NCBI GenBank assembly: GCA_947166515.1
Contig: CAMVEM010000005.1
Span: forward strand, 1-42,442
Reading direction: 5' to 3'
Length of the DNA stretch: 42,442 nt
Source: an uncultured Clostridia bacterium
GTDB taxonomy: Bacteria > Bacillota > Clostridia > Oscillospirales > Ruminococcaceae
The notes under the pieces are model-generated. The model did no database searches. It saw only the letters and a program-made list of their open reading frames with translations, and had not been told where the DNA came from. The stretch's first letter is position 1. The number at the start of each line of letters is the position of its first letter. The translations under genes were made by a program, and so were the position numbers. Positions 4,180-34,331 of this stretch are shown piece after piece.

Positions 4180-4244
4180 GAAGGTTTCTCTGATGCGCGC
4201 ATCGTGCGCGCTTTTGGAAACCTTCTGTACGGCTTCCTGCCGTA
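4180..4244 (+). repeat. Three-stem module M1
   Basis: Stem A GAAGGTTTC (4180-4188) pairs with GAAACCTTC (4217-4225). It encloses hairpin B, GCGCGCA/TGCGCGC with loop TCG. The internal-loop segments are TCTGAT and TTTTG. Two bases later hairpin C follows, TACGGC/GCCGTA with loop TTCCT. The module is flanked by GCCCCCTCC and GGAGGGGGC, so it sits in the loop of a G/C-rich palindrome of the E type (about 4157-4264). Related modules are at 33871, 34006, 34186 and 34269. Confidence 0.75.
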
Positions 4245-4275
4245 AATGGAGGGGGCTGGGGGTGAGCTCACCATA

Positions 4276-5142
4276 TCAGTCTTCAAGATCCTTGAGGGCT
4301 GCAAGCTCGTCGCGGTTTATGCGGATCTTCGAGTCCTTCAGCAGCTTCACCTCATCACGTCTGAACGGCTGTGCAGGCGCGTCAGGATTGCTTTTCAGCT
4401 TGACTTTGAGCATTCCGGTCAGAAGGTTCGATTCCTCGACCTGACCCTGACCATTCGGTGTATCAACGATAGCACCCACCTTCGGAGTTATCTTAAGCAG
4501 CGCGTCATAGCTGTCCTGCTCATATTTCAGACAGCACATAAGTCTGCCGCAGGTTCCGGATATCTTAGTAGGATTGAGCGAAAGTGACTGCTCCTTCGCC
4601 ATTTTTATGGATACCGGCTGGAATTCTCCCAGAAAGCTCGCGCAACAGAACGGCCTTCCGCAGATACCGAGACCGCCGAGCATCTTCGCCTCATCCCTTA
4701 CGCCTATCTGACGAAGCTCGATACGCGTTCTGTAAACTCCCGCAAGATCTTTTACAAGCTCGCGGAAATCCACTCTGCTCTCAGCGGAGAAATAAAACAG
4801 TATCTTGCTCCCGTCAAACGTGTATTCAACGTTGATAGGCTTCATTTTCAGCCCGTGCTCATTTATTTTCTTCGCAAAGGTCTTCATTATCTCGTTTTCC
4901 TTTGCCTTGTTGTCTTCTATCCGTCTGAGATCATCAGCGGTCGCCTTGCGCATGATAGGCTTGAGCGGCTGGATAATGACGTTGTCTTCCACTTCGCGGT
5001 TTTCTATGACCACCTCGCCGCACTCAATGCCTCTTGCGGTCTCGACTATGACCTTATCACCCGCCGAAAGCTTCTTGCCCGCCGGTGAAAAGTAATATAC
5101 CTTACCGATCTCCTTGAATCTTATTCCGATTATCTCTGTCAT
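4276..5142 (-). CDS. ricT: PSP1-domain protein RicT (YaaT), Y-complex subunit
   Basis: The 288-residue protein carries the PSP1 domain and the paired-cysteine motifs of the RicT/YaaT family: CGRPFCC near residue 155 and GTCGRLMCC near 190. In Bacillus subtilis RicT works with RicA and RicF in an iron-sulfur complex that helps RNase Y in mRNA processing and affects sporulation and biofilm. The start at 5142 gives MTEIIGIRF, with AAAGGA six bases upstream. Upstream in-frame ATGs overlap holB and lack a better ribosome-binding site. It follows holB by 19 bp, and darA-holB-ricT matches the conserved Firmicute order (yaaQ-holB-yaaT), although the intervening yaaR is absent. A G/C-rich repeat carrying module M1 lies just downstream. 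Confidence 0.92.
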   Translation of the reverse strand: MTEIIGIRFKEIGKVYYFSPAGKKLSAGDKVIVETARGIECGEVVIENREVEDNVIIQPLKPIMRKATADDLRRIEDNKAKENEIMKTFAKKINEHGLKMKPINVEYTFDGSKILFYFSAESRVDFRELVKDLAGVYRTRIELRQIGVRDEAKMLGGLGICGRPFCCASFLGEFQPVSIKMAKEQSLSLNPTKISGTCGRLMCCLKYEQDSYDALLKITPKVGAIVDTPNGQGQVEESNLLTGMLKVKLKSNPDAPAQPFRRDEVKLLKDSKIRINRDELAALKDLED

Positions 5143-5161
5143 TTTGTTCCTTTCTTGCATA

Positions 5162-6133
5162 TCACGGATTTTCCGCCGCATTGAAAAGCGCGCTGCAGCA
5201 TTCCGCCGCAAACAGCTTCACATTCGGGTTCGTGAACGACATTCCGTACAGCCGGACTGCCTCGTTGTAAAGTCTTGATACAGCTTTAAGACTGTAGGCG
5301 CCCGCAAGGCGCTCCGTCTGTGCGCGGTATGACCCGTATGAAGGATTCCCCGCTTTAACAGTCGCAGTATTTCCGAAAATATCGGACAGTATGCCGAGAG
5401 CGTCAAATATCTCTTCCCTTGTTTTCAGCGACAGAAACGCATTCAGACAGTCGAGCTCCTTTTTCGCCGCAACAGCGTCCGCCGCTTTTATCGCGGCGCT
5501 CAGATATTGTATCTCGCCGCCGCCGTTTTCAAATCCGAGCGCAGCGCCGATATTCCCGCCGAAGCGCTCAAACAGCTCCGCCGCGCGTACGCGGTCGATA
5601 CCGTTATCCGTCATAGCCCGGGTGAATTCTGCCTCGTCCGCGCCGTCAACCTCAACTGCCGTGACTCTCGACAGCACCGTCTGGAGCACAGGCGTTCTGC
5701 TCTTTGCGATAAAGATATAGCGGTTGAATTCGAGCGGCTCTTCTATGAATTTGAGCAGCGCGTTCTGGCAGATAGGCGACATCTCATCGAGATCCTCAAA
5801 TACGCACACTCTTATATCGCCGTCATTCGGCTTTGTGTAGCAGCTCGTTATGAATTCTCTCAGCTCTTCGACATGATAAGTATTCTTTTCCATTGAGGAA
5901 AGCGGATATACCACATCCGGGTGGATATGCTGCTCAGTACGCCGGCAGCCGTCGCAATGCCCACATGGACGTTCTCCGTCCCCCGCGCACATATACATCA
6001 TAGCCGCATAGTCGGCGATAATGTGTTTTCCGATGCCCTCAGCCCCACAGAACAGAAGCGCGTGGGGAAATCTCCCCGACCGTCTGAAATCCGCGAGCCG
6101 CGCGAGAGCATGTTTTTTTCCGTACAGCTCCAT
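5162..6133 (-). CDS. holB: DNA polymerase III delta-prime subunit
   Basis: The 323-residue protein is the delta-prime clamp-loader subunit. It begins with an AAA+ domain (FPHALLFCGAEGIGKHIIADYAA), has the zinc cluster CGHCDGC near residue 60, and has the conserved LLKFIEEP segment near 130. The Walker A ends in GKH rather than GK[ST], and the SRC arginine-finger motif reads SRVT. Delta-prime subunits commonly do not hydrolyse ATP, so the first change is not disabling. The changed SRC is a departure. The stop of darA and the start of holB overlap as TAATG, showing translational coupling. Confidence 0.93.
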   Translation of the reverse strand: MELYGKKHALARLADFRRSGRFPHALLFCGAEGIGKHIIADYAAMMYMCAGDGERPCGHCDGCRRTEQHIHPDVVYPLSSMEKNTYHVEELREFITSCYTKPNDGDIRVCVFEDLDEMSPICQNALLKFIEEPLEFNRYIFIAKSRTPVLQTVLSRVTAVEVDGADEAEFTRAMTDNGIDRVRAAELFERFGGNIGAALGFENGGGEIQYLSAAIKAADAVAAKKELDCLNAFLSLKTREEIFDALGILSDIFGNTATVKAGNPSYGSYRAQTERLAGAYSLKAVSRLYNEAVRLYGMSFTNPNVKLFAAECCSALFNAAENP

Positions 6134-6459
6134 TACAGCTTCTCGAACCGCTCAATGTCCGTGACGAACACAGTCGCACCGCCGACGCTAACCTCAACGG
6201 GATAGCTTTCCGGCGCTTCTTTTGCAGTAAGCGACGCGGCATTCGGGACATACTGCTTTCTCTTGCGCGAATTATGCGCGATTATCGAGATCACCCCGTC
6301 AACTCCGGAATTCTCACAGGCGATCATGAACGTTGTGTTGCCCGCCATCAGAAATCCGCCTGTGGACGCAAGCTTTGTCGCAGAATAACCGCCCTGTGTG
6401 AGCGCGGACGCGACCGTATGCGCATCGTCATTGTTTACTATTGCGAATATGAGCTTCAT
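6133..6459 (-). CDS. darA: Cyclic-di-AMP receptor of the PII-like DarA/PstA family
   Basis: The 108-residue protein begins MKLIFAIVNNDDAHTVASAL and contains GYSATKLASTGGFLMAGNTTFMI, the hallmark of the DarA/PstA (YaaQ, formerly DUF970) family. These are trimeric PII-like cytoplasmic proteins that bind c-di-AMP. It heads the darA-holB-ricT operon and has a near-consensus promoter and a leader with a 10-bp inverted repeat. Its output partner in the cell is not known from this sequence. Confidence 0.95.
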   Translation of the reverse strand: MKLIFAIVNNDDAHTVASALTQGGYSATKLASTGGFLMAGNTTFMIACENSGVDGVISIIAHNSRKRKQYVPNAASLTAKEAPESYPVEVSVGGATVFVTDIERFEKL

Positions 6460-6496
6460 ATATTTGCTGTCCTTTTCTGTGATATGATCACTATCG

Positions 6497-6538
6497 ACAA
6501 CTTAAGATATTATTCGTTTCATTTTTCGCTTAAGTTGT
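6497..6538 (-). promoter_or_regulatory. 10-bp inverted repeat in the darA leader
   Basis: ACAACTTAAG (6497-6506) and CTTAAGTTGT (6529-6538) are perfect complements separated by 22 bases. They lie between the darA -10 box and its start codon. They could be an operator or an RNA hairpin. No T run follows, so this is not a terminator. Confidence 0.5.
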
Positions 6539-6562
6539 GAATATTGAAGATACAATAAAAAT

Positions 6563-6591
6563 ATTATATCACATTTTTTTCTAAATTGCAA
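6563..6591 (-). promoter_or_regulatory. Promoter of darA-holB-ricT
   Basis: Minus strand TTGCAA (6586-6591), 17-bp spacer, TATAAT (6563-6568). It is divergent from the promoter at 6643. Confidence 0.75.
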
Positions 6592-6642
6592 TACGGGAAA
6601 AATATATCATTTTTATCTGCAATTATTTCTTTGAAAAAGCCC

Positions 6643-6671
6643 TTGAAATATGTTCTCCGCTGTGATATAAT
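6643..6671 (+). promoter_or_regulatory. Promoter of the 6809-10723 gene run
   Basis: TTGAAA (6643-6648), 17-bp spacer, TATAAT (6666-6671). A leader of about 130 bases follows with no recognised riboswitch. Confidence 0.75.
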
Positions 6672-6808
6672 ATAGATGTATCGGCTCTGACGAGCCTGTA
6701 GTATTCCGGGATATGCGAATTTTGTCTTCCGGATGATACGGCTCAGCCGGCTGTCACCGCTGTCAATGATTCATAAAACAGCATAAAACGGTAAAGGGGT
6801 AAGATCAT

Positions 6809-7762
6809 TTGAAAACCGTTATCACAGACAACACACTTTCTTACATGAAATATAATAAAGATCACGTTTCCGGCGACACGCTCGCGCTTTACGCAAAATC
6901 CATATTCTCGTGCGGCGCCGACTATATCGAGATCAGCACAGAGACCGCCATACACATGGCGCTCGACGACTATTCCGAGAAATACATACTCCGCGCGACG
7001 AGCCCGTACGACCTCGGTTACTGCATGGGAGTACAGTTCGCTTATGTCTGCGTTCCGCTGAAACTTGCGCCGAGGATAGAACGCCTCCCCGAAAATCAGC
7101 AGGTGATACTCGAAATAAACGCCGATGAATACAGCGCACAGGCACTGATACTGTATGCGAGAAGATACACGTTCTTCCGCAGAGTTTCGGCAGTACGCCT
7201 CACCGGAATACTCGACAACTCCGGCGACAACATGAATAAGCTCCTGAAATGGTGCCGGAACAATCTTATCGTCCCGATAGATATCTGCCCGCTGAACACA
7301 ATGCTCACCGGCGTATCCGATGCCGTAAACGCCTGCATCTCGGGCGCGGCAATGATAACGCTTTCGTTCGGCAGGAACTATTACTACACATCGCTCGAAC
7401 AGTATCTTATCGGCCTGCATATAACCCGCAGGACGCTCATGCGCGACGATGTCATAAGAGCAATATGCGTTGCGAGCTTCCTCTTTGCGGAGATATTCTC
7501 CGTTATTCCGACAGGACTCGCCAACATCATCGACATAGACAGCGAGATATCGACCTCGATATATGATATAGAATCCGGCATCATATACCGGCCGTACAGA
7601 TCAAGGCCGAAGCCTCACGCCGTTAAGACAGAGACCGCCATTGACCGAAAGATACGTAGCATAGGTCTCGAACACGATATAGAAAACGCAATAATCGACA
7701 CACTCAAAAAGGTGAATTTCAGCTTCTACAAGGAGATCTCAAAGAGAGAACCCATAGATTGA
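6809..7762 (+). CDS. DRE-TIM metallolyase-like protein without catalytic residues (homocitrate/isopropylmalate synthase fold)
   Basis: The 317-residue protein follows the fold order of NifV/LeuA-type synthases but not their chemistry. Residues 157-181 (IDICPLNTMLT...SGA) line up without gaps with the family segment containing HxHND; the two metal-binding histidines become Cys160 and Leu162. The N-terminal DTTLRDG becomes DNTLSYM (7-13), so the arginine and metal-binding aspartate are lost. DIESGI (253-258) and ETAIDRKIRSIGL (275-287) match the ESGI and HSG-xAI-xxKL-xxLG parts of the C-terminal region. It is therefore probably a pseudoenzyme or has a new activity. The start is TTG with a strong AAAGGGG ten bases upstream. 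It leads a likely operon with the zinc-ribbon gene 19 bp downstream. Confidence 0.65.
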   Translation: MKTVITDNTLSYMKYNKDHVSGDTLALYAKSIFSCGADYIEISTETAIHMALDDYSEKYILRATSPYDLGYCMGVQFAYVCVPLKLAPRIERLPENQQVILEINADEYSAQALILYARRYTFFRRVSAVRLTGILDNSGDNMNKLLKWCRNNLIVPIDICPLNTMLTGVSDAVNACISGAAMITLSFGRNYYYTSLEQYLIGLHITRRTLMRDDVIRAICVASFLFAEIFSVIPTGLANIIDIDSEISTSIYDIESGIIYRPYRSRPKPHAVKTETAIDRKIRSIGLEHDIENAIIDTLKKVNFSFYKEISKREPID

Positions 7763-7781
7763 ACAAACGCGGAGGATATTG

Positions 7782-8864
7782 ATGAGCACCGATATAGTTG
7801 CATATAAATGCCCGTCATGCGGAGCACCACTCTCATACACGACAGAATCACAGGATTTCGCCTGTCCTTACTGCGGCTCACACTTCACACAGGCTCAGCT
7901 CGACGGTCCGCTTGAGGGCACCTCGACCGACACAACGCCCGAACAGGCAGGCTTAGAGGAAAAGCAGAAACAGTTCGGCGACGAGAACAGATTATATACC
8001 TGCCCCGGCTGCGGAGCCGCAATCATCACGGATTCCGAGCTCGACGCGTCGGCGGAGTGCGTTTACTGCCACAGCCCGGTTGTGCTTTCCGGAAGACTTT
8101 CGGGAGAATTCCGCCCGGACAAGGTGATACCGTTCAAGAAGTCCCGCGGAGAAGCGATCATGGGGTTCAACAAGTGGACAAAAGCCAAGAAGTTCTTTCT
8201 CGCAAAAGGATTCGGAAACGCGGATCATCTGTCCAAAATCCAGGGCATATATATCCCCTTCTGGCTCGCCGACACCTGCGTGGAAGGCTCGCTCAGCGCC
8301 GACTGCTTCAAAACTCTAGGAAGCACACGGCACGGAGATTACATAGTCAAGACCGAAGCCAAGAGCGCAGCCGAAAGAGAAGGCAGCGTAATATTCCAGG
8401 GAGTGCCTGCGGACGGCTCGTCAAAAGCCGATGATGCTCTTATGGACAGCATAGAACCGTTCAATTACGGCGAACTGGTGGATTTCGACATGTCTTATCT
8501 TTCCGGTCACAACGCGCTGCGCTATGACGTTTCAAAAGATCAGGTATATGAGCGCGTGGAAAAGCGTGTCAACAGCACGGCGGAAGAGCTGTTCTCCGGC
8601 TCGATAACCGGGTACAACATTGTAAAAGTCACTTCAAAGAATTTCAGAGTCACCAACATCAACTGGCAGAATGTCATGCTGCCGATGTGGTTCCTCACAT
8701 ATCCGTACAAAGAAAAGATGTATTATTTCGCAATGAACGGTCAGACCGGGAAATTCGGCGGAACGCTCCCGATAAATAAGGGAAAACTCGCACTGTTCGC
8801 TTTCGGGATACCTTTCGCGGCGGCAATAGTGATATCTGCGCTGCTGGCGTTTCTGGGGGTCTAA
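7782..8864 (+). CDS. Zinc-ribbon (TFIIB-type) protein with C-terminal membrane anchor
   Basis: The 360-residue protein has two N-terminal treble-clef/zinc-ribbon units: CPSCGAPL...CPYCGSHF (about 10-35) and CPGCGAAI...CVYCHSPV (about 73-98). A central soluble domain contains the segment GIYIPFWLADTCVEGSLSAD, and one or two hydrophobic segments lie at the extreme C-terminus (ALFAFGIPFAAAIVISALLAFLGV). Similar Firmicute proteins are called TFIIB-type zinc-ribbon proteins; their role is not established. The ATG at 7782 has GGAGG six bases upstream. The next gene starts 3 bases after the stop, so the pair is coupled. A membrane-linked quality-control role is only a guess. Confidence 0.75.
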   Translation: MSTDIVAYKCPSCGAPLSYTTESQDFACPYCGSHFTQAQLDGPLEGTSTDTTPEQAGLEEKQKQFGDENRLYTCPGCGAAIITDSELDASAECVYCHSPVVLSGRLSGEFRPDKVIPFKKSRGEAIMGFNKWTKAKKFFLAKGFGNADHLSKIQGIYIPFWLADTCVEGSLSADCFKTLGSTRHGDYIVKTEAKSAAEREGSVIFQGVPADGSSKADDALMDSIEPFNYGELVDFDMSYLSGHNALRYDVSKDQVYERVEKRVNSTAEELFSGSITGYNIVKVTSKNFRVTNINWQNVMLPMWFLTYPYKEKMYYFAMNGQTGKFGGTLPINKGKLALFAFGIPFAAAIVISALLAFLGV

Positions 8865-8867
8865 GAT

Positions 8868-9719
8868 ATGGCAAAGAAAATATTTCTTATCTTTATCTCA
8901 TCGCTCATAGCTGCAGCGTTCCTGTGTTTTCCGGCTGCTGCCGACGATCAGCAGTACGGACCGAAAGCACTGCTGATAGATATGGCCGATGTCATTCCTG
9001 CAGAGAACGAACCTGAGCTGCTCCAGAAGATCACTTCCGCAGTCGAAAAGACCGGGTTCAGCATCATAGTCTCGTCAACGAACGACATAGGCTCGCCTAA
9101 AACGGATGCCCGCACGGTAGCATACGCGGACGATCTGTATGAGGAATACTGCGGAAAGGACACCGACGGAATACTGCTGCTGATAAACTGCGATACCGAG
9201 TACGACTATATCTCCACAAGCGGCGTGTGCATCAACTATTTCAGCGACTACCGCATTGAGCTTATTCTTGACTCGATATTCGACGATCTCGTTGCTCACA
9301 GATTCACAAAGGCTGCAGAAACATTCGTAAAGAAAGCCGAATACTACTACGATCAGGGAAAGGCTAACCACCAGCAGGAGATACTCGGGCAGGAAGTCGA
9401 TCTTTATGATTTCTCTGCCGCTTTCATAAGGCTGATGTTCTTTACCGGATTTGCCGCACTGATAGTATCTGTCAGCATTTACTCATATTATGCGTCGCAT
9501 TATAAGCTCCAGGCGCCGACCACCCAGAACTATATGCTGAAGGATTCGCTTTATTTCACCAGGAAAAACGATGTGTTCATCGGCAACATAACCACCCGCA
9601 TATATTCTCCGCGTTCATCATCTTCGGGCGGCGGACATTCGTCCGGCCACTCGCACCACAGCTCAACGCACCATTCCAGCAGCGGCGGAAGACACGGCGG
9701 CGGCGGAAGACACAGATAA
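8868..9719 (+). CDS. TPM-domain membrane protein with His/Ser/Gly-rich tail
   Basis: The 283-residue protein has a signal peptide (LIFISSLIAAAFLCFPAAADD), an extracytoplasmic TPM domain (TLP18.3/Psb32/MOLO-1 fold, about 30-165, with LIDMADVIPAENEPELLQKI and GILLLINCDTEYDYISTSG), a transmembrane helix at about 186-206, and a cytoplasmic-side tail. The tail ends in a low-complexity stretch of serine, glycine and histidine (about 248-283), which could bind metal. TPM proteins are linked to photosystem repair in plants and to membrane or envelope upkeep in bacteria. It is tightly packed between the zinc-ribbon gene and the efflux adaptor. Confidence 0.85.
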   Translation: MAKKIFLIFISSLIAAAFLCFPAAADDQQYGPKALLIDMADVIPAENEPELLQKITSAVEKTGFSIIVSSTNDIGSPKTDARTVAYADDLYEEYCGKDTDGILLLINCDTEYDYISTSGVCINYFSDYRIELILDSIFDDLVAHRFTKAAETFVKKAEYYYDQGKANHQQEILGQEVDLYDFSAAFIRLMFFTGFAALIVSVSIYSYYASHYKLQAPTTQNYMLKDSLYFTRKNDVFIGNITTRIYSPRSSSSGGGHSSGHSHHSSTHHSSSGGRHGGGGRHR

Positions 9720-9745
9720 CCGCGGCACACCGAAACAGGAGAAAC

Positions 9746-10723
9746 ATGAAAAAAAGATATTTTGCGGCATTTACGGCCGCTGTACTGATGCTGGCCTGCA
9801 GCTGTTCAAAGCCTGCTGAAAAAGCGGAAATAAAAATCCCGATACTCGAAGGCGATTCCTCAAAGAGCTACAAAACGGCGGAAGCAGCCTGCCGCGACCT
9901 TGAATCATACACGAATATCGCCGGAACGGTGGAATACGCCTACGCTGAGACTCTCACGATAGATCACGACACCAATATCCTCGAATATAATGTGACCAAA
10001 GGAGATCACCTCAGCAAAGGAGACGTAATAGCAGTATTTTCCTCGGCAGACATGAACTATGAATATCAGAGCCAGAAAATACTGACCGACAACGCCTATT
10101 CCGCCTATACCGCTTCGGGAACAGAATCCGCAAGGCTTGAATATGAGCAGCAGAAGCTCCGGCTCGATCTCGTCCAGTACAAAATAGACAGCTATACGAT
10201 CAGAGCTCCGTATGACTGCATCATATCCAACATCAGCTTATTCGAAACGGGAGACGCAGTTGCTGCGGGAACACCGGTCTGCACCGTCGCAAAACCCGGC
10301 GATGTTTATGTGTCTGTGGACAGAAATCTGGACAAGTTTTCCTTAGGCACGCCGGTAAAGCTGAAATTCGGCACCGACGAGACCTACACGGGAAAAGTCG
10401 TTATGCCGTACAACAGCAGATATAACAGCGGCGTAGGCGCAAAGGTACTGATAGCGTTCGACGAGGGCGAATACGCACGCGCCTCAGGGGATATAGGAAA
10501 TCTTGTTACAGCGGGCTGGGCTACAGTCTCGGTAAAGGTTTATGACAAGCATGACGCACTTTGCATACCCAAAGAGGCGGTCATGGTATATTCCGGCACA
10601 ACATACTGCTATATCGTGAACGACGGCACGCGCACAAGAATACCGATCGAGACCGGCGAAACAGTCAACGATCTCACAATAGTATTGAGCGGTCTCACCG
10701 AGGGAGACATCGTATCATACTGA
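9746..10723 (+). CDS. HlyD/RND-type efflux adaptor lipoprotein (orphan)
   Basis: The 325-residue protein has a lipoprotein signal (MLACSC). It has the two half-lipoyl strands of an adaptor (ILEYNVTKGDHLSKGDVIAVF and YTIRAPYDCIISNISLFETGDAVAAGTPVCTVA) flanking a helical hairpin with QSQKILTDNAYSAY and EYEQQKLRLDLVQYKIDSY. A beta-barrel and a C-terminal membrane-proximal domain follow (ALCIPKEAVMVYSG...VSGLTEGD-like end). Such proteins bridge an ABC or RND transporter to the exterior. No transporter subunit lies beside it, so its partner is elsewhere or it serves the preceding membrane proteins. A complex terminator region follows. Confidence 0.83.
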   Translation: MKKRYFAAFTAAVLMLACSCSKPAEKAEIKIPILEGDSSKSYKTAEAACRDLESYTNIAGTVEYAYAETLTIDHDTNILEYNVTKGDHLSKGDVIAVFSSADMNYEYQSQKILTDNAYSAYTASGTESARLEYEQQKLRLDLVQYKIDSYTIRAPYDCIISNISLFETGDAVAAGTPVCTVAKPGDVYVSVDRNLDKFSLGTPVKLKFGTDETYTGKVVMPYNSRYNSGVGAKVLIAFDEGEYARASGDIGNLVTAGWATVSVKVYDKHDALCIPKEAVMVYSGTTYCYIVNDGTRTRIPIETGETVNDLTIVLSGLTEGDIVSY

Positions 10724-10733
10724 TTTAATATAA

Positions 10734-14232: not shown

Positions 14233-14925
14233 ATGAAGCACGGAAAGAAATATAGCGAAAGCGCAAAGCTTGTTGATTCCACAAAATTATATGAAGTAGC
14301 GGAGGCTTGCGATCTCGTATGCAAAACCGCTAAGGCAAAGTTTGACGAAACAGTTGAACTTCATGTAAGACTCGGCGTTGACTCCCGTCACGCTGACCAG
14401 CAGGTAAGAGGCGCCGTTGTTCTCCCCAACGGTACCGGTAAGACCGTTAGAACACTCGTATTCACAAAGGGCGATAAGATCAAGGAAGCAGAAGATGCAG
14501 GTTCTGATTACATCGCTGATGACGATACCGTAAAGAAGATCATGGACGGCTGGATGGATTTCGACGTAGTTATCGCATCTCCCGACATGATGGGCGTTGT
14601 AGGACGTCTCGGTAAGGTGCTCGGTCCGAGAGGACTCATGCCGAACCCCAAGGCAGGTACTGTAACTCCCGAAATAGGCAAGGCTATCGCTGATGCCAAG
14701 GCTGGTAAGATCGAGTACAGACTCGATAAGACCAACATCATCCACTGCCCGATCGGTAAGGCTTCTTTTGGTCAGGAAAAGCTCTCCGAGAACCTCGAAG
14801 CTCTCATGGGCGCTATCGTAAAGGCTAAGCCTGCTGCAGCAAAAGGCCAGTATATCAAGAGCTGCGTGGTTACTTCCACAATGGGCCCCGGCGTCAAGAT
14901 CAACCCCGTTAAGTACGGCGCATAA
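14233..14925 (+). CDS. rplA: 50S ribosomal protein L1
   Basis: The 230-residue protein has the L1 signature: [20 protein letters not shown] and [16 protein letters not shown], then [15 protein letters not shown] near residue 134. It binds the L1 stalk of 23S rRNA and often represses its own operon. It starts after AAGGAGGATTATATA. Its last codons and stop lie inside the first unit of a 23-bp tandem repeat that is part of a G element, so the gene end has been shaped by a repeat. Confidence 0.97.
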
Positions 14926-14993
14926 GACTTTTAGTCGCTCGCGCATAAGACTTTTAGTCGCTCGCGCTTGAGACTTTTAGTCGCTCGCGCTTG
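14918..14993 (-). repeat. 23-bp tandem repeat, three units and a partial fourth
   Basis: Units begin at 14918, 14941 and 14964, each starting GCGC(A/T)T(A/G)AGAC and ending AGTCGCTC, with a partial unit from 14987. On the minus strand the unit is the tail of a G element (TCTCAAGCG...GCGAC), which is present once or twice in the other copies. The first unit contains the rplA stop codon. Confidence 0.85.
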
Positions 14994-15057
14994 AGATTGG
15001 GGGAAACCTTTTGTGAACAAAAGGTTATCCCCCAAACCCCTTTCCAAAAAACTTTAC
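14994..15057 (-). repeat. G element copy 1
   Basis: On the minus strand it runs GTAAAGTTTTTTGGAAAGG, then a long palindrome with AACCTTTTGT and ACAAAAGGTT arms around a two-base loop, closed by outer G5/C5 runs, then AATCT. It is almost identical to copy 2 at 22561. The gap 14926-15281 contains only this, the tandem tail, the terminator at 15105 and the promoter at 15212. Confidence 0.85.
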
Positions 15058-15104
15058 ATGCTTCGCGTGTTATTAATAAGTTTTTTGGTTATTATAAAAA
15101 TAAC

Positions 15105-22498: not shown

Positions 22499-22560
22499 CT
22501 ATTATATGACACACTACCTGTCAAAAAGGGCAGAAACTTACAAATACAAATGCGAAGCGA

Positions 22561-22655
22561 GTAAAGTTTTTTGGAAGGGGGGTTGGGGGATAACCTTTTG
22601 TTCACAAAAGGTTTCCCCCAATCTCGAGCGGAGCGACAAAATCTAAAGCGGAGCG
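22561..22655 (+). repeat. G element copy 2
   Basis: GTAAAGTTTTTTGGAAGG, then a palindrome with ACCTTTTGT/ACAAAAGGT arms and G5/C5 outer runs, then AATCT at 22621-22624. Two tail units follow (CGAGCGGAGCGACAAAATCT and AAAGCGGAGCGG). The second tail unit lies next to the secA2 start codon at 22664 and probably supplies its ribosome-binding site (GGAG). Confidence 0.85.
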
Positions 22656-26631: not shown

Positions 26632-26632
26632 T

Positions 26633-28613: not shown

Positions 28614-28622
28614 GAAGATTCG

Positions 28623-28852
28623 CCCTACCCCCTGCCCCCTCCCCTAAAGGGGAGGGGGTTCTGTTTTATTCCGCGGGGGGGCGGAGCCCCCCACACCCCT
28701 CCTGTTTGCAGGGTGCGGGGTGTCTCCCCGAACGCGGGCGAGGTGGAGCTTTTGCAAAGCAAAAGCCACAGAGAGGGCTGACCGACAGACTCGAAACCCC
28801 ACAAGAAGAAAAAACAAGCCCCCTCCCCTTGGGGAGAGGGTTGGGGGTGGGG
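28623..28852. repeat. E element, second full copy (230 bp)
   Basis: Ends CCCTACCCCCTGCCCCCTCC and GGGGAGAGGGTTGGGGGTGG form inverted repeats, as at 2892-3101. The left end has the palindrome CCCCTCCCCTAAAGGGGAGG. Inner hairpins include CGGGGGGGCGGAGCCCCCC and GCTTTTGCAAAGCAAAAGC. It fills the gap between two convergent genes. Confidence 0.75.
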
Positions 28853-28856
28853 CCAC

Positions 28857-29279
28857 TCATTCTTTATACGGCCTGCCGCATTCGCTGCAGAATCTTCCTT
28901 TGTTCTCAGTTCCGCAGTCCGGACATTTCCACGGCTTTATCGGTGCTTTCCCACCGCACTCCGGACAGAACTTCGATGTGTTCTCACTTCCGCAGCCGCA
29001 TACCCAGCGCGTATCGTCGATCCATTTTCCGGTAGAAACCGGAGATCCCGGCATACCGTTGCTGATCAGCTCGTTAAAACCGCCGGGATTCATCATATTG
29101 GGCGGACCATACATCATCTGAGGCGGTCCATAAAGCGCCTGCACAGGCGGCTGCATCTGCACAAGTCCCTGAAGCTGAGGCTCATTACTGAGCATCTCTT
29201 TAAACTTACGCTCAATCTCAGCTTTCTCTTCATCTGTCATTTTACCATTTTTATTGCTCTTTCCGTGGCTCTTCATCAT
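28857..29279 (-). CDS. Small protein with two C-terminal zinc ribbons
   Basis: The 140-residue protein has a charged N-terminus (about 1-40), a proline/methionine/glycine-rich linker (ALYGPPQMMYGPPNMMNPGG), and two zinc-ribbon units: CGCGSENTSKFCPECGG and CPDCGTENKGRFCSECGR. Such double ribbons often mediate protein or nucleic-acid contacts. The function is unknown. Its start overlaps the stop of the upstream flippase-like gene by 4 bases, so it is translationally coupled and probably acts with that membrane protein. Confidence 0.78.
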   Translation of the reverse strand: MMKSHGKSNKNGKMTDEEKAEIERKFKEMLSNEPQLQGLVQMQPPVQALYGPPQMMYGPPNMMNPGGFNELISNGMPGSPVSTGKWIDDTRWVCGCGSENTSKFCPECGGKAPIKPWKCPDCGTENKGRFCSECGRPYKE

Positions 29280-30352
29280 TGCTCTCCTTTTGCTTCGATC
29301 TCCTTCATTACATCTGCCGCATTGGTGAGATCCACGCCGCTCTTCGCCATTTTCAGATTAATGCCTATGCCGACGATTATCGGCAGATAAAATGTCAGGA
29401 AACGCCAGATAAACATCGAAACTCCGGTGTAATAGTCGCCGAATATAGGCTTGAAAAACGCCGCGTAGCTGCCTTCTGCTGCTCCCATAGCTCCTGGGAG
29501 CGGTACGAATGCCGAGATCATCAGCACGAACGCCTGGCACGAAATGATCGTGAAGAAATCCGTATCATGCGGGATATCAAAGCCTATGTAGATCACAAAT
29601 GTGATCGAGAAATACACCATAAGCTGTATGACCGTCACGATGAACATTTTGAAGATCATCATAGGCTGGCTTTTTATGAAGATGAAATTCTTGTAGTAAG
29701 TCTCAAGCTCGCGGTCAATGTATTCGAGCGCATAATCAACGTTCTTTATTATGCGTATCTTTCCGAGCAGTCTCACCAGAATGTGCGCCAGCTTGGTAGT
29801 AGCTTTTCTGAAAAACGCGAGCATAAGCAGCAACACGATAACGATCGTATTAACGATAAATCCGACTATAACGAGGAAAGTCAGCGGTTTCAGATCTCCA
29901 TCGGTGAACATCGGAAGCTTGCACACCAGAAAAATCACCGAATATACAGTCAGCGTGAACTGATATACGATGAACTTGCTCAGAAGCGCCGTCATAGCCG
30001 TTCCAAGAGAAACTCCCTTCTGCATGTAGGTATATACCTGCATGGGCTGGCCTCCCGAAGCGAACGGCGTTATGCAGTTGAAATACTGCCCGACCATGGT
30101 GACAAGAAACGTCGTTCTGAATTTGATTTTCGGGTCAAGACTTCTCGCCGCAAAATGCACAGCTATGCCTTCTGCAAGCCAGTAAACCACCATGCATAAC
30201 ACTGCAAGCACCAGAAACAGCGGGTTAAGCTTCGCCAGAGCGCCGAATATGTTCTCGGGACCTTCCATGAACAGAACGACGACCATTATCACGAATGCTA
30301 TGCCGCAGATTATCAGATTTAATTTGTTGCTCTTCTTTTTTCCCATTAACAT
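29276..30352 (-). CDS. Lysylphosphatidylglycerol synthase-type flippase domain membrane protein (YbhN/UPF0104-like)
   Basis: The 358-residue protein has about eight transmembrane helices and the family motif GQYFNCITPFASGGQPMQVYTYMQKG, with LPGAMGAAEGSYAAFF near the C-terminus. This is the integral membrane half (flippase) of MprF-type proteins, here without the aminoacyl-transferase domain. Such stand-alone domains may move lipids or lipid-linked sugars. It lies between metG and the zinc-ribbon gene. The ATG at 30352 follows AAAGGTAATTG. Confidence 0.83.
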   Translation of the reverse strand: MLMGKKKSNKLNLIICGIAFVIMVVVLFMEGPENIFGALAKLNPLFLVLAVLCMVVYWLAEGIAVHFAARSLDPKIKFRTTFLVTMVGQYFNCITPFASGGQPMQVYTYMQKGVSLGTAMTALLSKFIVYQFTLTVYSVIFLVCKLPMFTDGDLKPLTFLVIVGFIVNTIVIVLLLMLAFFRKATTKLAHILVRLLGKIRIIKNVDYALEYIDRELETYYKNFIFIKSQPMMIFKMFIVTVIQLMVYFSITFVIYIGFDIPHDTDFFTIISCQAFVLMISAFVPLPGAMGAAEGSYAAFFKPIFGDYYTGVSMFIWRFLTFYLPIIVGIGINLKMAKSGVDLTNAADVMKEIEAKGEQ

Positions 30353-30395
30353 CAATTACCTTTATCTGAAGACAGGACCGGATATATCCGTGCCG

Positions 30396-32324
30396 TCATC
30401 TTACCGTGCTTCCGTTAGGAATATCACCGTCAAGGAACACCACGCGCACATCGTCGCCCGCGTCACATGCGAGAAGCATTCCCTGGCTCTCTTCCCCGCA
30501 GAGCTTAGCCGGAGCAAGGTTCGCCACGAAGATTATCTTCTTTCCGATCAGGTCTTCCGGCTTATAATATTCCGCGATGCCTGAAACTATCTGTCTGCCG
30601 TTTCTGCCGTCATCGACCTGTATCTTTAAGAGCTTCTTCGATTTCGCTACCTTCTCACAGGCGGTTATCTCGCCGGTGCGGAGCTTTACTTCCGCGAATT
30701 TGTCGATATTTATGATATTCGCCTTGTCGAGGTCTTCGTCCTCTTTTATCGTCTTCTTGGGAGCGAGCATAGCATTGAGCTCGTCGATCTCCTTGTCTAT
30801 ATCTATGCGCGGGAACAGTATCTCTCCCTTGTGAACGGTGACATTTGCGGGTAGAACGCCGAATTCCGCAGCCTTTTCGTATGTCACATCGGCTTCAACC
30901 GCTCCTATCTGCTCCCACACCTTGGGCATGGTCACAGGCATGAACGGATAAAGCATCGTCGAGCACACCCTTATGGTATCGAGCAGAGTATAAAGCACGG
31001 TCGCAAGGCGCGCCTTGTTGGATTCGTCACGTCCGAGCACCCACGGCTCGGTCTCGTCAATATACTTGTTCGCACGGTCGATGACCTTGAATATCTCCGC
31101 AAGCGCGAGCGAATGCTGAGCTTCGTCAACAAATTTCGCCACCGGATCGCGCAGAGCCTTAGCCATAGATATGAGCTCATCATCTATCGCTTCGGGCTTT
31201 CTGTCGGTCGGAAGAGTGCCGCCAAAATATTTGTCTGCCATGGCAACTGTACGGGAAACAAGGTTTCCGAGTGCGTTGGCAAGGTCGTTGTTGATTCGCC
31301 CGATCATTATCTCATTCGAGAAGTTCGAGTCCGAGCCGTAGGGCATATCGCGGAGTATCTGATAGCGCACCGCGTCAACGCCGTAGCGCTCGCCGAGAAT
31401 GAACGGGTCAACGACGTTTCCGAGCGATTTGGACATCTTCGCACCACCGAAGGTTATCCAGCCGTGACCGTAGAGGCGCTTCGGAAGCGGTATATCGAGC
31501 ATCATAAGCACAGCCGGCCATACGATAGAGTGGAAACGCACTATCTCCTTGGCGGTCATGTGCATATCCGCGGGCCAGTACTTGTCGAAATCATTGTAGG
31601 TATTGTTCTCATAGCCGAGCGCGCTGATATAGTTGATGAGCGCGTCGAGCCACACATAGACGGTGTGCTTCTCGTCGAACGGAACGGGTATTCCCCATTT
31701 CACCGATGTTCTTGAAACGCAGAGATCCTCAAGTCCATCCTTTACGAAATTGTTTATCATCTCATTAACGCGGCTCTCGGGGCGCAGATAGTCGGTATTG
31801 CGCAGAAGCTCAGTCACGCGGTCGGTCATTACGGAGAGCTTGAGAAAATAAGCTTCCTCCTCAGCTTCAATGACATCTCTTCCGCAGTCGGGACATTTGC
31901 CGTCAACGAGCTGGGTCTCTGTCCAGAAGCTCTCGCACGGAACGCAGTATTTGCCCTTATATGTGCTCTTGTAGATGTAGCCCTTGTCGTAGAGCTTTCT
32001 GAAAATGTTCTGAACGGTCTCGATGTGACAAGGGTCGGTGGTTCTGATGTAGCGGTCGTAGCTTATGTTCATGAAGCTCCAGAGCTTCTTGAAGTTAGCG
32101 ACTATCCCGTCAACATACTGCTGCGGCGTCATTCCCTCGGATTCCGCCTTCTGCTGTATCTTCGCGCCGTGCTCATCGGTACCGGTGAGGAACATAACGT
32201 CATAGCCCTGCATTCTCTTCATACGTGCGATAACGTCGCACGCCACTGTCGTGTAGCAGTGTCCGATATGGGGGTTGCCGGACGGATAGTATATCGGGGT
32301 GGTGATATAATATTTCTTGTTCAT
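30396..32324 (-). CDS. metG: Methionyl-tRNA synthetase
   Basis: The 642-residue class I synthetase has the HIGH-type motif PSGNPHIGHCY (about 12-22), a zinc knuckle (CVPCESFW...CPDCG), KMSKSLGN near 300, and a C-terminal tRNA-binding OB domain (EVKLRTGEITACEKVAKSKKL). Length is usual for the Firmicute form. The start MNKKYYITTPIYY at 32324 has GCGGAGGTCTTT directly upstream. The short leader has no T-box. Confidence 0.97.
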   Translation of the reverse strand: MNKKYYITTPIYYPSGNPHIGHCYTTVACDVIARMKRMQGYDVMFLTGTDEHGAKIQQKAESEGMTPQQYVDGIVANFKKLWSFMNISYDRYIRTTDPCHIETVQNIFRKLYDKGYIYKSTYKGKYCVPCESFWTETQLVDGKCPDCGRDVIEAEEEAYFLKLSVMTDRVTELLRNTDYLRPESRVNEMINNFVKDGLEDLCVSRTSVKWGIPVPFDEKHTVYVWLDALINYISALGYENNTYNDFDKYWPADMHMTAKEIVRFHSIVWPAVLMMLDIPLPKRLYGHGWITFGGAKMSKSLGNVVDPFILGERYGVDAVRYQILRDMPYGSDSNFSNEIMIGRINNDLANALGNLVSRTVAMADKYFGGTLPTDRKPEAIDDELISMAKALRDPVAKFVDEAQHSLALAEIFKVIDRANKYIDETEPWVLGRDESNKARLATVLYTLLDTIRVCSTMLYPFMPVTMPKVWEQIGAVEADVTYEKAAEFGVLPANVTVHKGEILFPRIDIDKEIDELNAMLAPKKTIKEDEDLDKANIINIDKFAEVKLRTGEITACEKVAKSKKLLKIQVDDGRNGRQIVSGIAEYYKPEDLIGKKIIFVANLAPAKLCGEESQGMLLACDAGDDVRVVFLDGDIPNGSTVR

Positions 32325-32417
32325 AAAGACCTCCGCGTAATGATATTTTTTCATTTTCATTATTCCCGTAAGAATCGCGGATAATGAAAACGGGTTATTC
32401 AGCTATTGATAAGAGAT

Positions 32418-32446
32418 ATTATACCACAAAAAGCCCGTCTTGGCAA
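32418..32446 (-). promoter_or_regulatory. Promoter of the metG operon
   Basis: Minus strand TTGCCA (32441-32446), 17-bp spacer, TATAAT (32418-32423). It is divergent from the promoter at 32495. Confidence 0.75.
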
Positions 32447-32494
32447 TATATAAAATATTTTACAAGAATTTTTTACATTTTTCACAGAAAAGAC

Positions 32495-32523
32495 TTGATT
32501 TTTTTTCAATTTTCTATTAAAAT
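32495..32523 (+). promoter_or_regulatory. Promoter of the CdaR-family regulator
   Basis: TTGATT (32495-32500), 17-bp spacer, TAAAAT (32518-32523). About 150 bases of leader follow (32530-32675) without a recognised riboswitch. Confidence 0.6.
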
Positions 32524-32675
32524 AGAAGTTGTATATATATTTGTGCGATGCACAGATGAGAATTACATACGAATACCCCGCAAAAGTGTGATAGCGCCGC
32601 GCCAAAAGGTTCGGAGAGTCATTAATAAGCACAGGCGGGAAAGGGCTGAAGCCTCAGAAAGGAAAGGACAGTATT

Positions 32676-33761
32676 ATGTCAAACAGATTATTCCAGGGAG
32701 TAGTTCACCAGATGAGAGATACCGTCGGAAGAGTCATCGGCGTTATCGACGAGAACGCTACTATCGTAGCGTGCAGTGAGCTGTCGAAGATCGGCACATC
32801 AAACGATTTCTTCTCGATAGAATTCAGCGATTCGCATGACATTTTCATCCGCGACGGATACACTTATAAGCCGTTCGGAGTACATGTCAAGCCCGATTAT
32901 GCGGTATTTGTCGAAGGAACGGATGAAATGGCGGGCAAATACGCATCCATACTCGCGATATCACTGTCGAGCATCAAGCAGTATTACGACGAAAAGTACG
33001 ACCGCAACAACTTCGTCAAGAACATAATCCTCGACAACGTACTGCCGGGAGATATAAGCATAAAATCGAGAGAACTCCACTTCAATGCGGATATCAACCG
33101 CGTGGTGTTCCTGATAAGCATAGTTTCGTCGAACGACGTTTCTGCATATGACGTTATACAGAACCTGTTCCCGGACAAGAACAAGGACTTCGTGTTCAAC
33201 ATTGCAGAGAGCGAGATAGTGCTCGTCAAGGAAATAAAGAGCGGCATCGACGTCAAGGATCTCGAAAAGCTTGCGCGTTCGATAGCTGACACGCTCCAGA
33301 CAGAGTTCTTCACCCGCGTCAACATCGGTATCGGAACCCCCGTTATCGGCGTAAAGGACCTCGCGCGCTCATTCAAGGAAGCACAGATAGCGATAGAAGT
33401 CGGAAAGGTATTCGACACCGAAAAGAACATCGTAAGCTACGACAACCTCGGTATCGCAAGACTTATCTATCATCTGCCAACGACGCTCTGCGAGACATTC
33501 CTCAAGGAAGTGTTCAAGAAGGGCTCGATAGAGTCTCTCGACCACGAGACTCTGTTCACTATCCAGCGTTTCTTCGAGAACAATCTGAACGTGTCTGAGA
33601 CATCGAGAAAGCTCTTCGTACACAGAAATACTCTCGTTTACAGACTTGACAAGATAAAGAAGCTCACAGGACTCGACCTGAGAGAATTCGACCATGCCAT
33701 TATCTTCAAGATAGCGCTCATGGTCAAGAAATATCTCTCCGCAGACCCTGTGAAGTTCTGA
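32676..33761 (+). CDS. CdaR/PucR-family transcriptional regulator
   Basis: The 361-residue protein has an N-terminal sugar-diacid-recognition type domain (about 1-115), a central GGDEF-like degenerate domain (about 130-250, with NIGIGTPVIGVKDLARSFKEAQIAI), and the C-terminal PucR-type helix-turn-helix (FFENNLNVSETSRKLFVHRNTLVYRLDKIKKLTGLDL). These are activators that respond to metabolites such as diacids. The target genes are not evident. It has its own promoter and a strong terminator, so it is a single unit. Confidence 0.88.
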   Translation: MSNRLFQGVVHQMRDTVGRVIGVIDENATIVACSELSKIGTSNDFFSIEFSDSHDIFIRDGYTYKPFGVHVKPDYAVFVEGTDEMAGKYASILAISLSSIKQYYDEKYDRNNFVKNIILDNVLPGDISIKSRELHFNADINRVVFLISIVSSNDVSAYDVIQNLFPDKNKDFVFNIAESEIVLVKEIKSGIDVKDLEKLARSIADTLQTEFFTRVNIGIGTPVIGVKDLARSFKEAQIAIEVGKVFDTEKNIVSYDNLGIARLIYHLPTTLCETFLKEVFKKGSIESLDHETLFTIQRFFENNLNVSETSRKLFVHRNTLVYRLDKIKKLTGLDLREFDHAIIFKIALMVKKYLSADPVKF

Positions 33762-33779
33762 TAAGACCGACATATCATA

Positions 33780-33815
33780 CGAGGCGGAATCACCCTCCGC
33801 CTCGCGTGTTGTTTT
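33780..33815 (+). terminator. Terminator of the CdaR-family gene
   Basis: CGAGGCGGA (33780-33788) pairs perfectly with TCCGCCTCG (33796-33804) and is followed by CGTGTTGTTTT. Confidence 0.85.
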
Positions 33816-33870
33816 CGCAAAAACAGATCGCTGCGCTCGAGACTGGGGCGCGTCTGTCGGAGTCAGCTAT

Positions 33871-33932
33871 GACCGCTGTATAGCGCGCATCAATGCGTGC
33901 CTTTGGGCGGTCAATCGTTGCATCGTGCAACG
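33871..33932 (+). repeat. Three-stem module M4
   Basis: Stem A GACCGC (33871-33876) pairs with GCGGTC (33907-33912). Inner hairpin B is GCGCGCAT/ATGCGTGC (one G-U) with loop CA. The internal segments are TGTATA and CTTTGG. Three bases after stem A comes hairpin C, CGTTGCA/TGCAACG, with loop TCG. Confidence 0.7.
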
Positions 33933-33935
33933 ACC

Positions 33936-33995
33936 CTCCGGCTCCTTCGTCGCCACCTCCCCGTGTTCGGGGAGACACCCGACACCCGCTTCTTT
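33936..33995. repeat. Fragment of an E element
   Basis: The segment around CCACCTCCCCGTGTTCGGGG and AGACACCCGACACCC resembles, in reverse complement, the inner part of the E element at 28623-28852 (GGGGTGTCTCCCCGAAC...GGTGG). It lies between modules M4 and M5 in the 632-bp gap before ftsE. A lesser match is seen in the 2892 copy. Confidence 0.5.
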
Positions 33996-34005
33996 TCGGA
34001 GGCGA

Positions 34006-34070
34006 CGCAGCAAGGAAGCTGCGGCAGTTTCGCCCAAGAGCGCGCAATGATGCGCGCATAAAAGCGAAAC
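34006..34070 (-). repeat. Three-stem module M5
   Basis: Read on the minus strand: stem A GTTTCGC/GCGAAAC encloses TTTTAT, hairpin B GCGCGCA/TGCGCGC with loop TCAT, and TCTTGG. Then TGC, then hairpin C CGCAGC/GCTGCG with loop TTCCTT. The arrangement matches the other modules although stem A and stem C differ in sequence. Confidence 0.72.
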
Positions 34071-34185
34071 GAAAAGGAAGGCAAAAGCGACTCGCTTCGC
34101 ATTTGAATATGTAAGTCTGTGCTTTTATTTGTACGTCATCTTGTATTATGCCAAATGTGTAAAGTTTTTTGGAAAGGGGTCTGCT

Positions 34186-34251
34186 GAAGGTTTCTTTTAT
34201 CGCCGCATCCTTGCGGCGTTCTGGAAACCTTCTGTACGACATCCTGTCGTA
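34186..34251 (+). repeat. Three-stem module M2
   Basis: Stem A GAAGGTTTC (34186-34194) pairs with GAAACCTTC (34224-34232). TTTTAT, then hairpin B CGCCGCA/TGCGGCG with loop TCCT, then TTCTG. Hairpin C is TACGAC/GTCGTA with loop ATCCT. It shares stem A with M1, but B and C differ by complementary changes. Confidence 0.78.
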
Positions 34252-34268
34252 GGGGATAACCTTTTGTT

Positions 34269-34331
34269 CACGGCAGAAAGCCGTGCAGTAAATTTCCAAA
34301 AGACCGCAGGAGGCGGTCAATAAAGAAATTT
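34269..34331 (-). repeat. Three-stem module M3
   Basis: Read on the minus strand: stem A AAATTTC/GAAATTT encloses TTTATT, hairpin B GACCGC/GCGGTC with loop CTCCT, and TTTTG. Then ACTG, then hairpin C CACGGC/GCCGTG with loop TTTCT. It occupies the apical loop of G element copy 3. Confidence 0.75.

Follow-up and report, generated by a model that had tools for sequence, protein, structure and literature searches.

The question raised by this locus is why a 42,442-nt stretch of clostridial DNA (the window, here always taken at its full length) holds several copies of one folded module whose stem letters differ from copy to copy and nevertheless pair, and at which step such a fold is kept. The preliminary description had placed five three-helix modules, M1 to M5, in this DNA, and their positions, their strands and their one common layout were confirmed by a check of the sequence and by a search with R1, a covariance model built from 25 copies of the module in its own genome, M1 to M5 among them. 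In the window search with R1 the five modules were matched with E values between 2.7e-21 and 9.4e-11, and the sole further match up to E 1 was the reverse strand of M1 (E 0.073). They lie as follows:

4178..4244, plus strand: module M1 (TC plus 65 nt), 87.2 bits with R1; helix A at 4180-4188/4217-4225, hairpin B at 4195-4211 within A, hairpin C at 4228-4244
33868..33932, plus strand: module M4, 47.6 bits with R1 and 48.9 bits with R2, the lowest-scoring of the five; its 5' boundary is uncertain (33871 with R1 and in the preliminary description)
34006..34070, minus strand: module M5, 57.2 bits, in a CTTTTC/GAAAAG host hairpin close to its tip (from the flanks and the predicted fold)
34184..34251, plus strand: module M2 (CT plus 66 nt), a 68-nt insertion relative to the empty E1 repeat at 14988-15066
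34269..34335, minus strand: module M3 (TC plus 65 nt), a 67-nt insertion in the tip of an E1 hairpin

The element takes in about 2 nt 5' of helix A (67 nt in all for M3, 68 nt for M2). For M1, the 5' TC was assigned from the unit length at other sites, and its E2 host may hide more element bases. The element of about 67 nt consists of two hairpins, A/B with a T-rich 6x5 internal loop and, 1-2 nt further on, C, and its RNA fold is predicted to be stable. The 5' internal segment of exactly 6 nt reported for M1 to M5 is true of these five and of 143 of the 191 distinct copies (7 nt in 31), and the 3' internal side measures 5 nt in 184 of the 191 if the last G of YTTGG pairs with the last C of helix A. 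What had been described as a pyrimidine-rich loop of hairpin C is better termed a cap, NTCN(N)T, since it is common to hairpin B as well; 181 of the 191 distinct copies carry it on both hairpins. The TTTTAT-like and TTTTG-like internal sides and both caps are unpaired and similar across these distinct copies.

Although the five copies are real, they are a small part of the true number. Searching the genome with a covariance model, as the preliminary description had proposed, yielded at least 133 copies in the module's own 3.1 Mb draft genome (83% complete), seven of which, M1 and six others, share an identical 65-nt core and score. The corresponding search of related genomes found it in 32 of 71 from the genus, with a patchy presence among relatives both across genus genomes and at comparison loci, and searches of the family and the order added matches in just one other genus. 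Head-to-tail arrays with a period of 66-72 are present, one copy is nested in the B hairpin of another, and some high-copy groups travel within the larger repeats E1, E2 and E5, so that the boundaries of the element are hidden there. The exact core pattern had 0 matches in viral contigs, and no match was obtained for M2 against plasmids or for M1 against phages. At the gathering score, Rfam reported one tRNA in the window and nothing over the modules; permissive scans of a window stretch and 15 loci returned weak matches only, none above the gathering score, among which an FMN riboswitch (L098) is taken as real and as part of the host, not of the module. Among the titles and abstract starts listed from the open-access literature, no description was recognised as this element.

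The window also holds host repeats of the modules, with E1 present in both filled and empty versions:

34148..34372, plus strand: E1 host repeat filled with M2 and M3, used for the filled/empty comparison
14988..15066, minus strand: empty E1 host repeat, the reference for the M2 insertion
22552..22630, plus strand: empty E1 host repeat, the query that gave 42 E1 match rows in its own genome
41878..41973, plus strand: E1-like host repeat with an empty tip (sequence comparison)
4162..4170, plus strand: 5' arm of the host hairpin (E2-type repeat) around M1, GCCCCCTCC
4248..4256, plus strand: 3' arm of the host hairpin around M1, GGAGGGGGC

Relative to empty E1, M2 adjoins the foot of the hairpin and M3 occupies its tip, both as clean insertions, and the E1 host arm differs by 2 nt beside M3. 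Around M1, the complementarity score of the flanks (11.0) exceeds the 99th percentile of mispaired flanks (8.5), and the predicted fold comprises the host stem, A/B and C. A host stem of at least 6 bp surrounds the module at 25 of 106 distinct sites (3.5 expected), and a flank stem of at least 8 bp at 12 of them (0.29 expected). Since the other 81 sites are without a perfect host stem of at least 6 bp, hairpin loops represent a preference and not a rule. Many copies are located at gene 3' ends, in terminators. When L206 was compared with L072, the terminator loop was empty in the relative, with the joint AATT|GACA by inspection; a like terminator without the module was found at 7 of 7 comparison loci for L267, and a module-free terminator at 8 of 9 loci for L250 (three of like sequence, five with another stem), the ninth having no clear terminator. 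Empty sites were also sought for L111 at ten loci, which do not share its gene order, and for L251 at twelve loci, where no conserved terminator was found. In addition, the hairpin of the FMN riboswitch (L098) carries a module that is reversed relative to the riboswitch RNA, and a DUF6076 gene (L027) is split by a module in such a way that excising exactly 64 nt restores one family-matching frame through the joint. By crude gene calls, an open frame of at least 90 codons encloses 48 of 156 copies, L027 included; among eight others of these that were examined, L087 occupies a recognisable gene, and L024 and L035 have their module ahead of the likely start.

The insertion of M2 entailed no target duplication. 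Short repeats, GTG beside M3 and TT beside L072, flank other copies in our own reading of the alignments, and a duplication of 2-3 nt is therefore excluded only for M2 and L087 (paralogue comparison). Judged from the sequences compared, there is no target duplication of fixed length. The 5' flanks of 75 copies with distinct flanks are T-rich and end mostly in C, G or T, and no fixed tetranucleotide was found in the left flank of these copies.

The proposal that structure is being kept gained support: the further copies that it predicts were found, and between families most of their stem changes are compensated. In the set of 25 copies, 89.6% of helix cells are paired, double changes occur at 15 of 21 pairs, and the covariation score of 0.407 is far above all slid versions and above the 0.144 of shuffled alignments, none of 500 reaching it. 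In 75 more diverse copies (74 distinct), whose alignment was fitted to the covariance model and is thus biased towards structure, 96.3% of cells are paired and 442 cells show a double change, as against 105 in shuffles (0 of 500); on the same set, 34 and 18 of 500 shuffles reached the values of two weaker measures. Compensation is the exception, however, in the eight recent families of the own genome that were compared, where 5 changed stem pairs have it and 23 lack it. The uncompensated changes in further copies that had been named as evidence against a kept structure are in the minority between families and in the majority within recent ones. Because the modules appear as copies of a mobile repeat and because compensation is so rare within families, the fold is probably kept at the copying or insertion step rather than locally. 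Within the recent families, base changes are nevertheless rarer in stems (about 33 in 2,220 sites) than at unpaired positions (56 in 1,345 sites), which makes some local constraint or correction possible.

In summary, the dispersed high copy number, the clean difference between filled and empty sites, the excess of hairpin-loop sites over chance and the arrays indicate, at the level of sequence, that the modules are mobile. We consider it likely, with a probability of roughly two in three, that they are non-autonomous, fold-recognised mobile elements of about 67 nt inserted by a putative enzyme acting in trans, perhaps of the HUH type. Such an enzyme would recognise the folded single strand by its internal loop and its two similar caps and would insert a copy wherever a loop is exposed, perhaps acting on single-stranded DNA in the manner of HUH (Y1) transposases. 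Copies that fold badly would not be passed on, and changes between families would therefore be compensated. For an insert in the loop of a terminator, the predicted fold keeps the host stem closed, so that termination would probably survive and the insertion be tolerated; the folded insert may in this way spare its host, and terminators, usually seen as end points, here look like landing pads. A design of two hairpins with one cap predicts that a single protein reads both, which would provide a direct route to the enzyme. The many copies with free stem letters are also a natural experiment on how covariation can arise from selection at the copying stage instead of from local function, and they call for caution when RNAs are discovered by covariation alone. 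More tentatively, and at somewhat less than even odds, the modules might constitute a distinct class of mobile element defined by its fold and not by its sequence, with two same-cap hairpins, a putative enzyme and copies of about 67 nt that stand singly or head-to-tail. That the targets of such a class would be apical loops (of terminators, riboswitch helices and its own hairpin), with no fixed duplication, is held equally tentatively, as is a route that might run through folded single-stranded DNA or RNA.

The strong covariation, the conserved caps and internal loop, the many copies in terminators at gene 3' ends, the stable predicted RNA fold and the slower change of stems within families would also be accounted for by a cis-acting structured RNA, transcribed in 3' ends, that binds a protein or stabilises or terminates the mRNA and has spread because it is useful. 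However, orientation to genes shows no clear bias: tandem-gene intergenic copies are sense in 18 cases and antisense in 27, gene ends are sense-only at 25 and antisense-only at 15 of 106 distinct sites, and 32 listed sites (with L123 entered twice, and L071 and L118 one locus under two names) divide into 8 sense-only, 4 antisense-only, 12 both and 8 neither. Wobble pairs likewise point to no clear strand, as G-T mismatches do not greatly exceed A-C mismatches overall (74 versus 54), with 25 versus 32 and 25 versus 14 in the first two sets and 3 versus 13 within recent families. The orientation of T-tracts (9, 12 and 4 ties) is uninformative, because a perfect stem swallows the tract. The reversed module in the FMN riboswitch, the mostly uncompensated stem changes within recent families and the patchy presence in relatives also argue against a local cis-RNA function, which is not supported and which we regard as unlikely. 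A slightly lower probability still is given to movement through an RNA or reverse-transcribed intermediate, a small folded RNA entering the hairpin loops of transcripts or exposed DNA before it is copied back; this would agree with clean insertion, gene-end hairpin-loop sites and conservation at the level of structure, but not with the lack of a clear sense bias or of a strong one-strand wobble preference.

An ordinary miniature inverted-repeat element of a DDE transposase would be short, dispersed, mostly intergenic and gene-free, as the modules are, and the carriage of some copies within larger palindromic repeats and the 2-3 nt repeats beside M3 and L072 are compatible with it. Yet no terminal inverted repeats were seen by eye at the ends of the 67-nt unit, duplications have no fixed length and are absent for M2, and the stem sequence is free where the fold is kept, all of which renders such an origin improbable. 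Template switching can make compensating changes in one step, and quasi-palindrome correction by this route, with no selection for the fold, had been put forward as a DNA-level alternative. It should, however, tend to make the internal loop complementary, whereas internal sides and caps stay unpaired in the 191 distinct copies, and it leaves insertion at new, unrelated sites unexplained; as the sole cause it is most improbable.

Mobility by a trans-acting enzyme, the reading preferred here, directs attention to candidate proteins. A search for Y1_Tnp found no match in the own genome (the 83% complete draft) or in the module-rich genomes G034, G007 and G015. Of 36 genus genomes, 13 have the domain: it is present in 8 of the 16 with modules and in 5 of the 20 that have none. 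This excess is mild, at least three of the eight positive genomes with modules (G002, G008, G024) hold fragments, and the domain was not found in several module-rich genomes, so that the comparison does not point convincingly to a Y1 transposase as present-day partner. No Y2_Tnp was found in 71 genomes in a search that had no control match and is hence uninformative. Among 12 Y1 loci searched with R2, a module lies nearby in two, and no full-length IS200/IS605 relative with the same end hairpins was found at these loci. The module in G014 (L083/L140), 473 nt upstream of a Y1 match, was dismissed as an end of that IS, whose end hairpins, read by eye, are separate from it and differently capped, and the neighbourhood is therefore probably due to chance. 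The Y1 match near a module in G024 (L146), a fragment with a truncated reading frame, was also rejected as a partner.

In kind, the modules are closest to REP, BOX and double-hairpin elements, with membership shown for none. To our knowledge, mitochondrial hairpin elements lack genes. They are mobile hairpin or double-hairpin elements like the modules, but they are organellar, and in those of sponges it is the stems that are conserved and the loops that vary, opposite to the pattern found here (PMC7218506, PMC2800124). Pneumococcal BOX, RUP and SPRITE are described as mobile structured Firmicute repeats that are enriched between convergent genes and insert into each other, one BOX forming a composite RNA with T boxes (PMC3049150). 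Unlike the modules, BOX and RUP are bounded by terminal inverted repeats and make target duplications, and by their description their size and modular plan are different (PMC3049150). IS1272 likewise targets an inverted-repeat or stem-loop structure and not a sequence, without target duplication, but it is an autonomous IS that replaces its target repeat, whereas the module has about 67 nt and the host stem is kept (PMC5678879). REP elements, which go with the IS200/IS605-like HUH transposases TnpAREP/RAYT, resemble the modules as short, palindromic, intergenic, high-copy repeats that form an imperfect hairpin with an internal loop or bulge, have a short motif 5' of the hairpin foot, occur as single and grouped copies and are often restricted to a species or genus (PMC8266576, PMC6006769, PMC3733652). 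In contrast to REP, the module is without a GTAG or CGTC tag (neither is among the 15 commonest 5'-flank tetranucleotides of the 75 copies), consists of two hairpins that differ in build and share one cap, prefers hairpin loops, and had no TnpA partner in our searches. Transposition of IS200/IS605 elements leaves no target duplication, in which M2 resembles them, a 2-3 nt repeat being possible at the M3 and L072 joints. Their left and right end hairpins are recognised as folded single strands (PMC6006769). Elements of this type, of which the modules would be non-autonomous derivatives, also have fixed cleavage tetranucleotides and guide sequences, whereas the 5' flank of the module showed only its richness in T. 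The modules differ by eye in their caps from the end hairpins of the one IS200-like copy in G014. The palindromic elements of Rickettsia are larger and are found within both protein-coding and RNA genes, their insertion into genes being typically in frame, whereas the module in the DUF6076 gene shifts the reading frame.

The preliminary description had reported five copies of a three-stem module in the window; all five were found in place, and R1, a covariance model trained on 25 copies from the window's own genome (GCA_947166515.1) with these five among them, recovered each of them (gene names are those of Pfam):

4178..4244, plus strand: M1, flanked by the genes of an RpiR/SIS regulator and of a PSP1-domain protein
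33868..33932, plus strand: M4, flanked by the genes of a PucR-type regulator and of an ABC ATPase
34006..34070, minus strand: M5, between the same two genes as M4
34184..34251, plus strand: M2, between the same two genes
34269..34335, minus strand: M3, between the same two genes

The ABC ATPase flanking the group of four looks like FtsE. The sole further R1 match in the window at an E value of 1 or below was the reverse strand of M1 (E 0.073). Across the 25 own-genome copies, 89.6% of the stem cells were paired, double changes occurred at 15 of the 21 stem pairs, the covariation score was 0.407 versus 0.144 for shuffles, and a partner shifted by 1-3 columns gave only 37-53% pairing. For 75 copies drawn from across the genus and from one further genus, the alignment of which was fitted to the model, 96.3% of the stem cells were paired, and double-change cells numbered 442 versus 105 when shuffled (reached in 0 of 500 shuffles).

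The letters of the stems are free, whereas the hairpin caps and the internal loop between helix A and hairpin B are far less variable. Among 191 distinct copies, 143 had 6 nt and 31 had 7 nt on the 5' side of this loop, and 184 had 5 nt on its 3' side, the commonest sides being TTTTAT and TTTTG, respectively; the cap NTCN(N)T was present on hairpin B in 187 copies, on hairpin C in 185 and on both in 181. Upstream of helix A, 75 copies with distinct flanks had a T-rich 5' flank, the last base of which was mostly C, G or T. Head-to-tail arrays were found in several genomes, and from their periods the unit of about 67 nt consists of two 5' nucleotides and a 65-nt core:

Genome G086: three full units, period 67, plus one shortened unit without part of hairpin B
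Genomes G076 and G077: three units each, period 67
Module dimers: period 66 to 72

In the own genome, a draft of 3.09 Mb in 271 contigs that is 83% complete, M1 as a BLAST query gave 41 matches and R1 at least 133, with 150 of 1,924 candidates scored. R1 matches were present in 16 of 60 genomes (own included), all 16 belonging to the same genus (36 of the 60), and none was found in the 24 genomes from elsewhere in the order; genus-wide, 32 of 71 genomes had matches at E 1e-4 or better. A family search of 297 genomes, with few candidates per genome scored (17), gave matches confined to the genus and to another genus, g118 (G272 and G331), and an order search of 394 genomes with the broader model R2, again with few candidates per genome scored (13), matched seven, namely six of the genus and G272; absence from genomes in these wide searches would count as a weak negative, since so few candidates were scored. 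One genome consisting of a single 2.7 Mb contig (G014) gave 13 R2 matches from 13 scored candidates, and the element is therefore not an artefact of fragmented drafts. The exact core occurred in 23 stretches of named records, all of them MAGs labelled Ruminiclostridium, Ruminococcus, Ruminococcaceae or Clostridia and several from ruminant stomachs, and was absent from the viral contigs searched; M1 matched no phage and M2 no plasmid in the respective searches. In the scanned stretches no Rfam family matched the module above gathering score, and no description of it was recognised in the literature searched. The module is alike in kind to REP, BOX/RUP/SPRITE and mitochondrial double-hairpin elements, and akin in target choice to IS1272, which is described as recognising inverted-repeat structures and not a sequence (PMC5678879); the membership tests run placed it in none of these.

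The 288 matches in the analysed loci were reduced to 262 units by merging arrays, to 256 with flanks and to 106 distinct sites by removing similar flanks, a filter that also discards some true sites (e.g. L111). A perfect host stem within 10 nt on both sides of the module, of at least 6, 7, 8 and 9 bp, was found at 25, 17, 12 and 10 of the 106 sites versus 3.5, 1.2, 0.29 and 0.10 expected from mispaired flanks, respectively. A gapped flank test of 72 sites agreed: relative to mispaired flanks, 18 sites reached the 95th percentile or more and 11 exceeded the 99th. Under the strict test a perfect stem of at least 6 bp was absent at 81 of the 106 sites, and insertion into hairpin loops is a strong preference and not a rule. 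Many of the host stems look like terminators. In an FMN riboswitch (L098:1939-2460) the module, reversed in orientation relative to the RNA, occupies the loop of the Rfam model's second hairpin, which we take to be P3 (69 nt versus 14 in the model); this match scores 58.6 bits, under the Rfam gathering score of 66.2, perhaps because of the insert. Beside this riboswitch lie tandem modules, and others are present on both strands no more than about 500 nt away. In addition, two modules sit nested in the B loop of another copy.

Two larger host repeats, E1 and E2, recur in the window:

14988-15066: E1, empty, a 79-nt host hairpin
22552-22630: E1, empty, a 79-nt host hairpin
34148-34372: E1, filled with M2 and M3
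41878-41973: E1, empty tip
82-110, 2893-2940, 3055-3102, 28624-28671 and 28806-28853: E2, a C/G-rich terminator-like repeat

Once 68 nt (M2) and 67 nt (M3) are left out, the filled repeat matches E1 again, the remaining differences being scattered mismatches and 2 nt next to M3. No direct repeat flanks M2, and GTG stands on either side of M3; judging from the sequences, a fixed target duplication is excluded and a short one possible at M3 (GTG) and at locus L072 (TT). By a count from listed spans, 38 of the 42 rows matching E1 in the own genome pass through the tip without insertion, and other tips carry one of two different modules. Since the empty tips differ in paired fashion (CCTTTTGTTCACAAAAGG, CCTTTTCTTCAGAAAAGG, CCCTTTTTTCAAAAAGGG), E1 may also be conserved for its structure. 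Immediately next to the empty E1 at 14988-15066, a 23-nt unit (GCGCATAAGACTTTTAGTCGCTC-like) is repeated three times in tandem (14918-14996). One form of E2 carries M1.

In G007 (L072) the module occupies a terminator loop behind a gene, and the corresponding terminator of G070 is empty, AATT and GACA meeting at the joint. The terminator AAAAAGCTCCG...CGGAGCTTTTTT of L267 (G071) carries a module, and a like terminator without it was present at seven of seven loci of other genomes, some of them possibly paralogues, the upstream gene having several matches per genome. Nine loci were compared with L250, the triple array of G076: on inspection, eight have a module-free terminator, similar in sequence in three and with a different stem in five, and the ninth has no clear terminator. 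The 12 loci compared for L251 showed no conserved terminator, and the 10 for L111 did not share its gene order. Genes are also interrupted: a DUF6076 gene of the own genome contains a module (L027:2003-2066) that shifts the frame when left in, and removal of exactly its 64 nt yields a continuous frame, with the family match spanning profile positions 9 to 157 across the joint. A G007 gene placed only by its resemblance to this one is interrupted as well (L087:1501-1566). Such comparisons indicate that the module is mobile. A larger repeat, E5 (L254-L263 and L271; G071 and G060), carries near-identical modules shortly before a C-rich/G-rich hairpin.

Movement by a DDE enzyme would sit poorly with the absence of a target duplication of fixed length. 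The cap shared by both hairpins suggests that one protein would read both, in which the module would resemble the IS200/IS605 elements, whose left-end and right-end hairpins are read by the transposase (PMC6006769). Searches for Y1_Tnp gave no match in the own genome (83% complete) or in the module-rich G034, G007 and G015, and the chance that an HUH enzyme moves the module is put at about one in three.

By crude gene calls, 48 of 156 copies lay inside an open frame; outside frames, 18 were sense and 27 antisense to tandem genes, 27 lay between convergent and 16 between divergent pairs, and the others were without a neighbour. Nearby gene 3' ends were in sense alone at 25 of the 106 distinct sites, in antisense alone at 15, in both orientations at 15 and in neither at 51. 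Mismatches in the 191 copies included 74 G-T and 54 A-C, and the changed pairs of eight recent own-genome families were 13 A-C, 3 G-T, 7 other mismatches and 5 compensated. Most of the cells that changed between the 38 cluster consensuses (4,094 of 6,502, the pairwise counts not being independent) were Watson-Crick pairs in both members compared. Such a pattern fits a fold selected along the lineage of active copies rather than in every copy at rest. Within families stems change less than unpaired positions, which leaves room for some local constraint.
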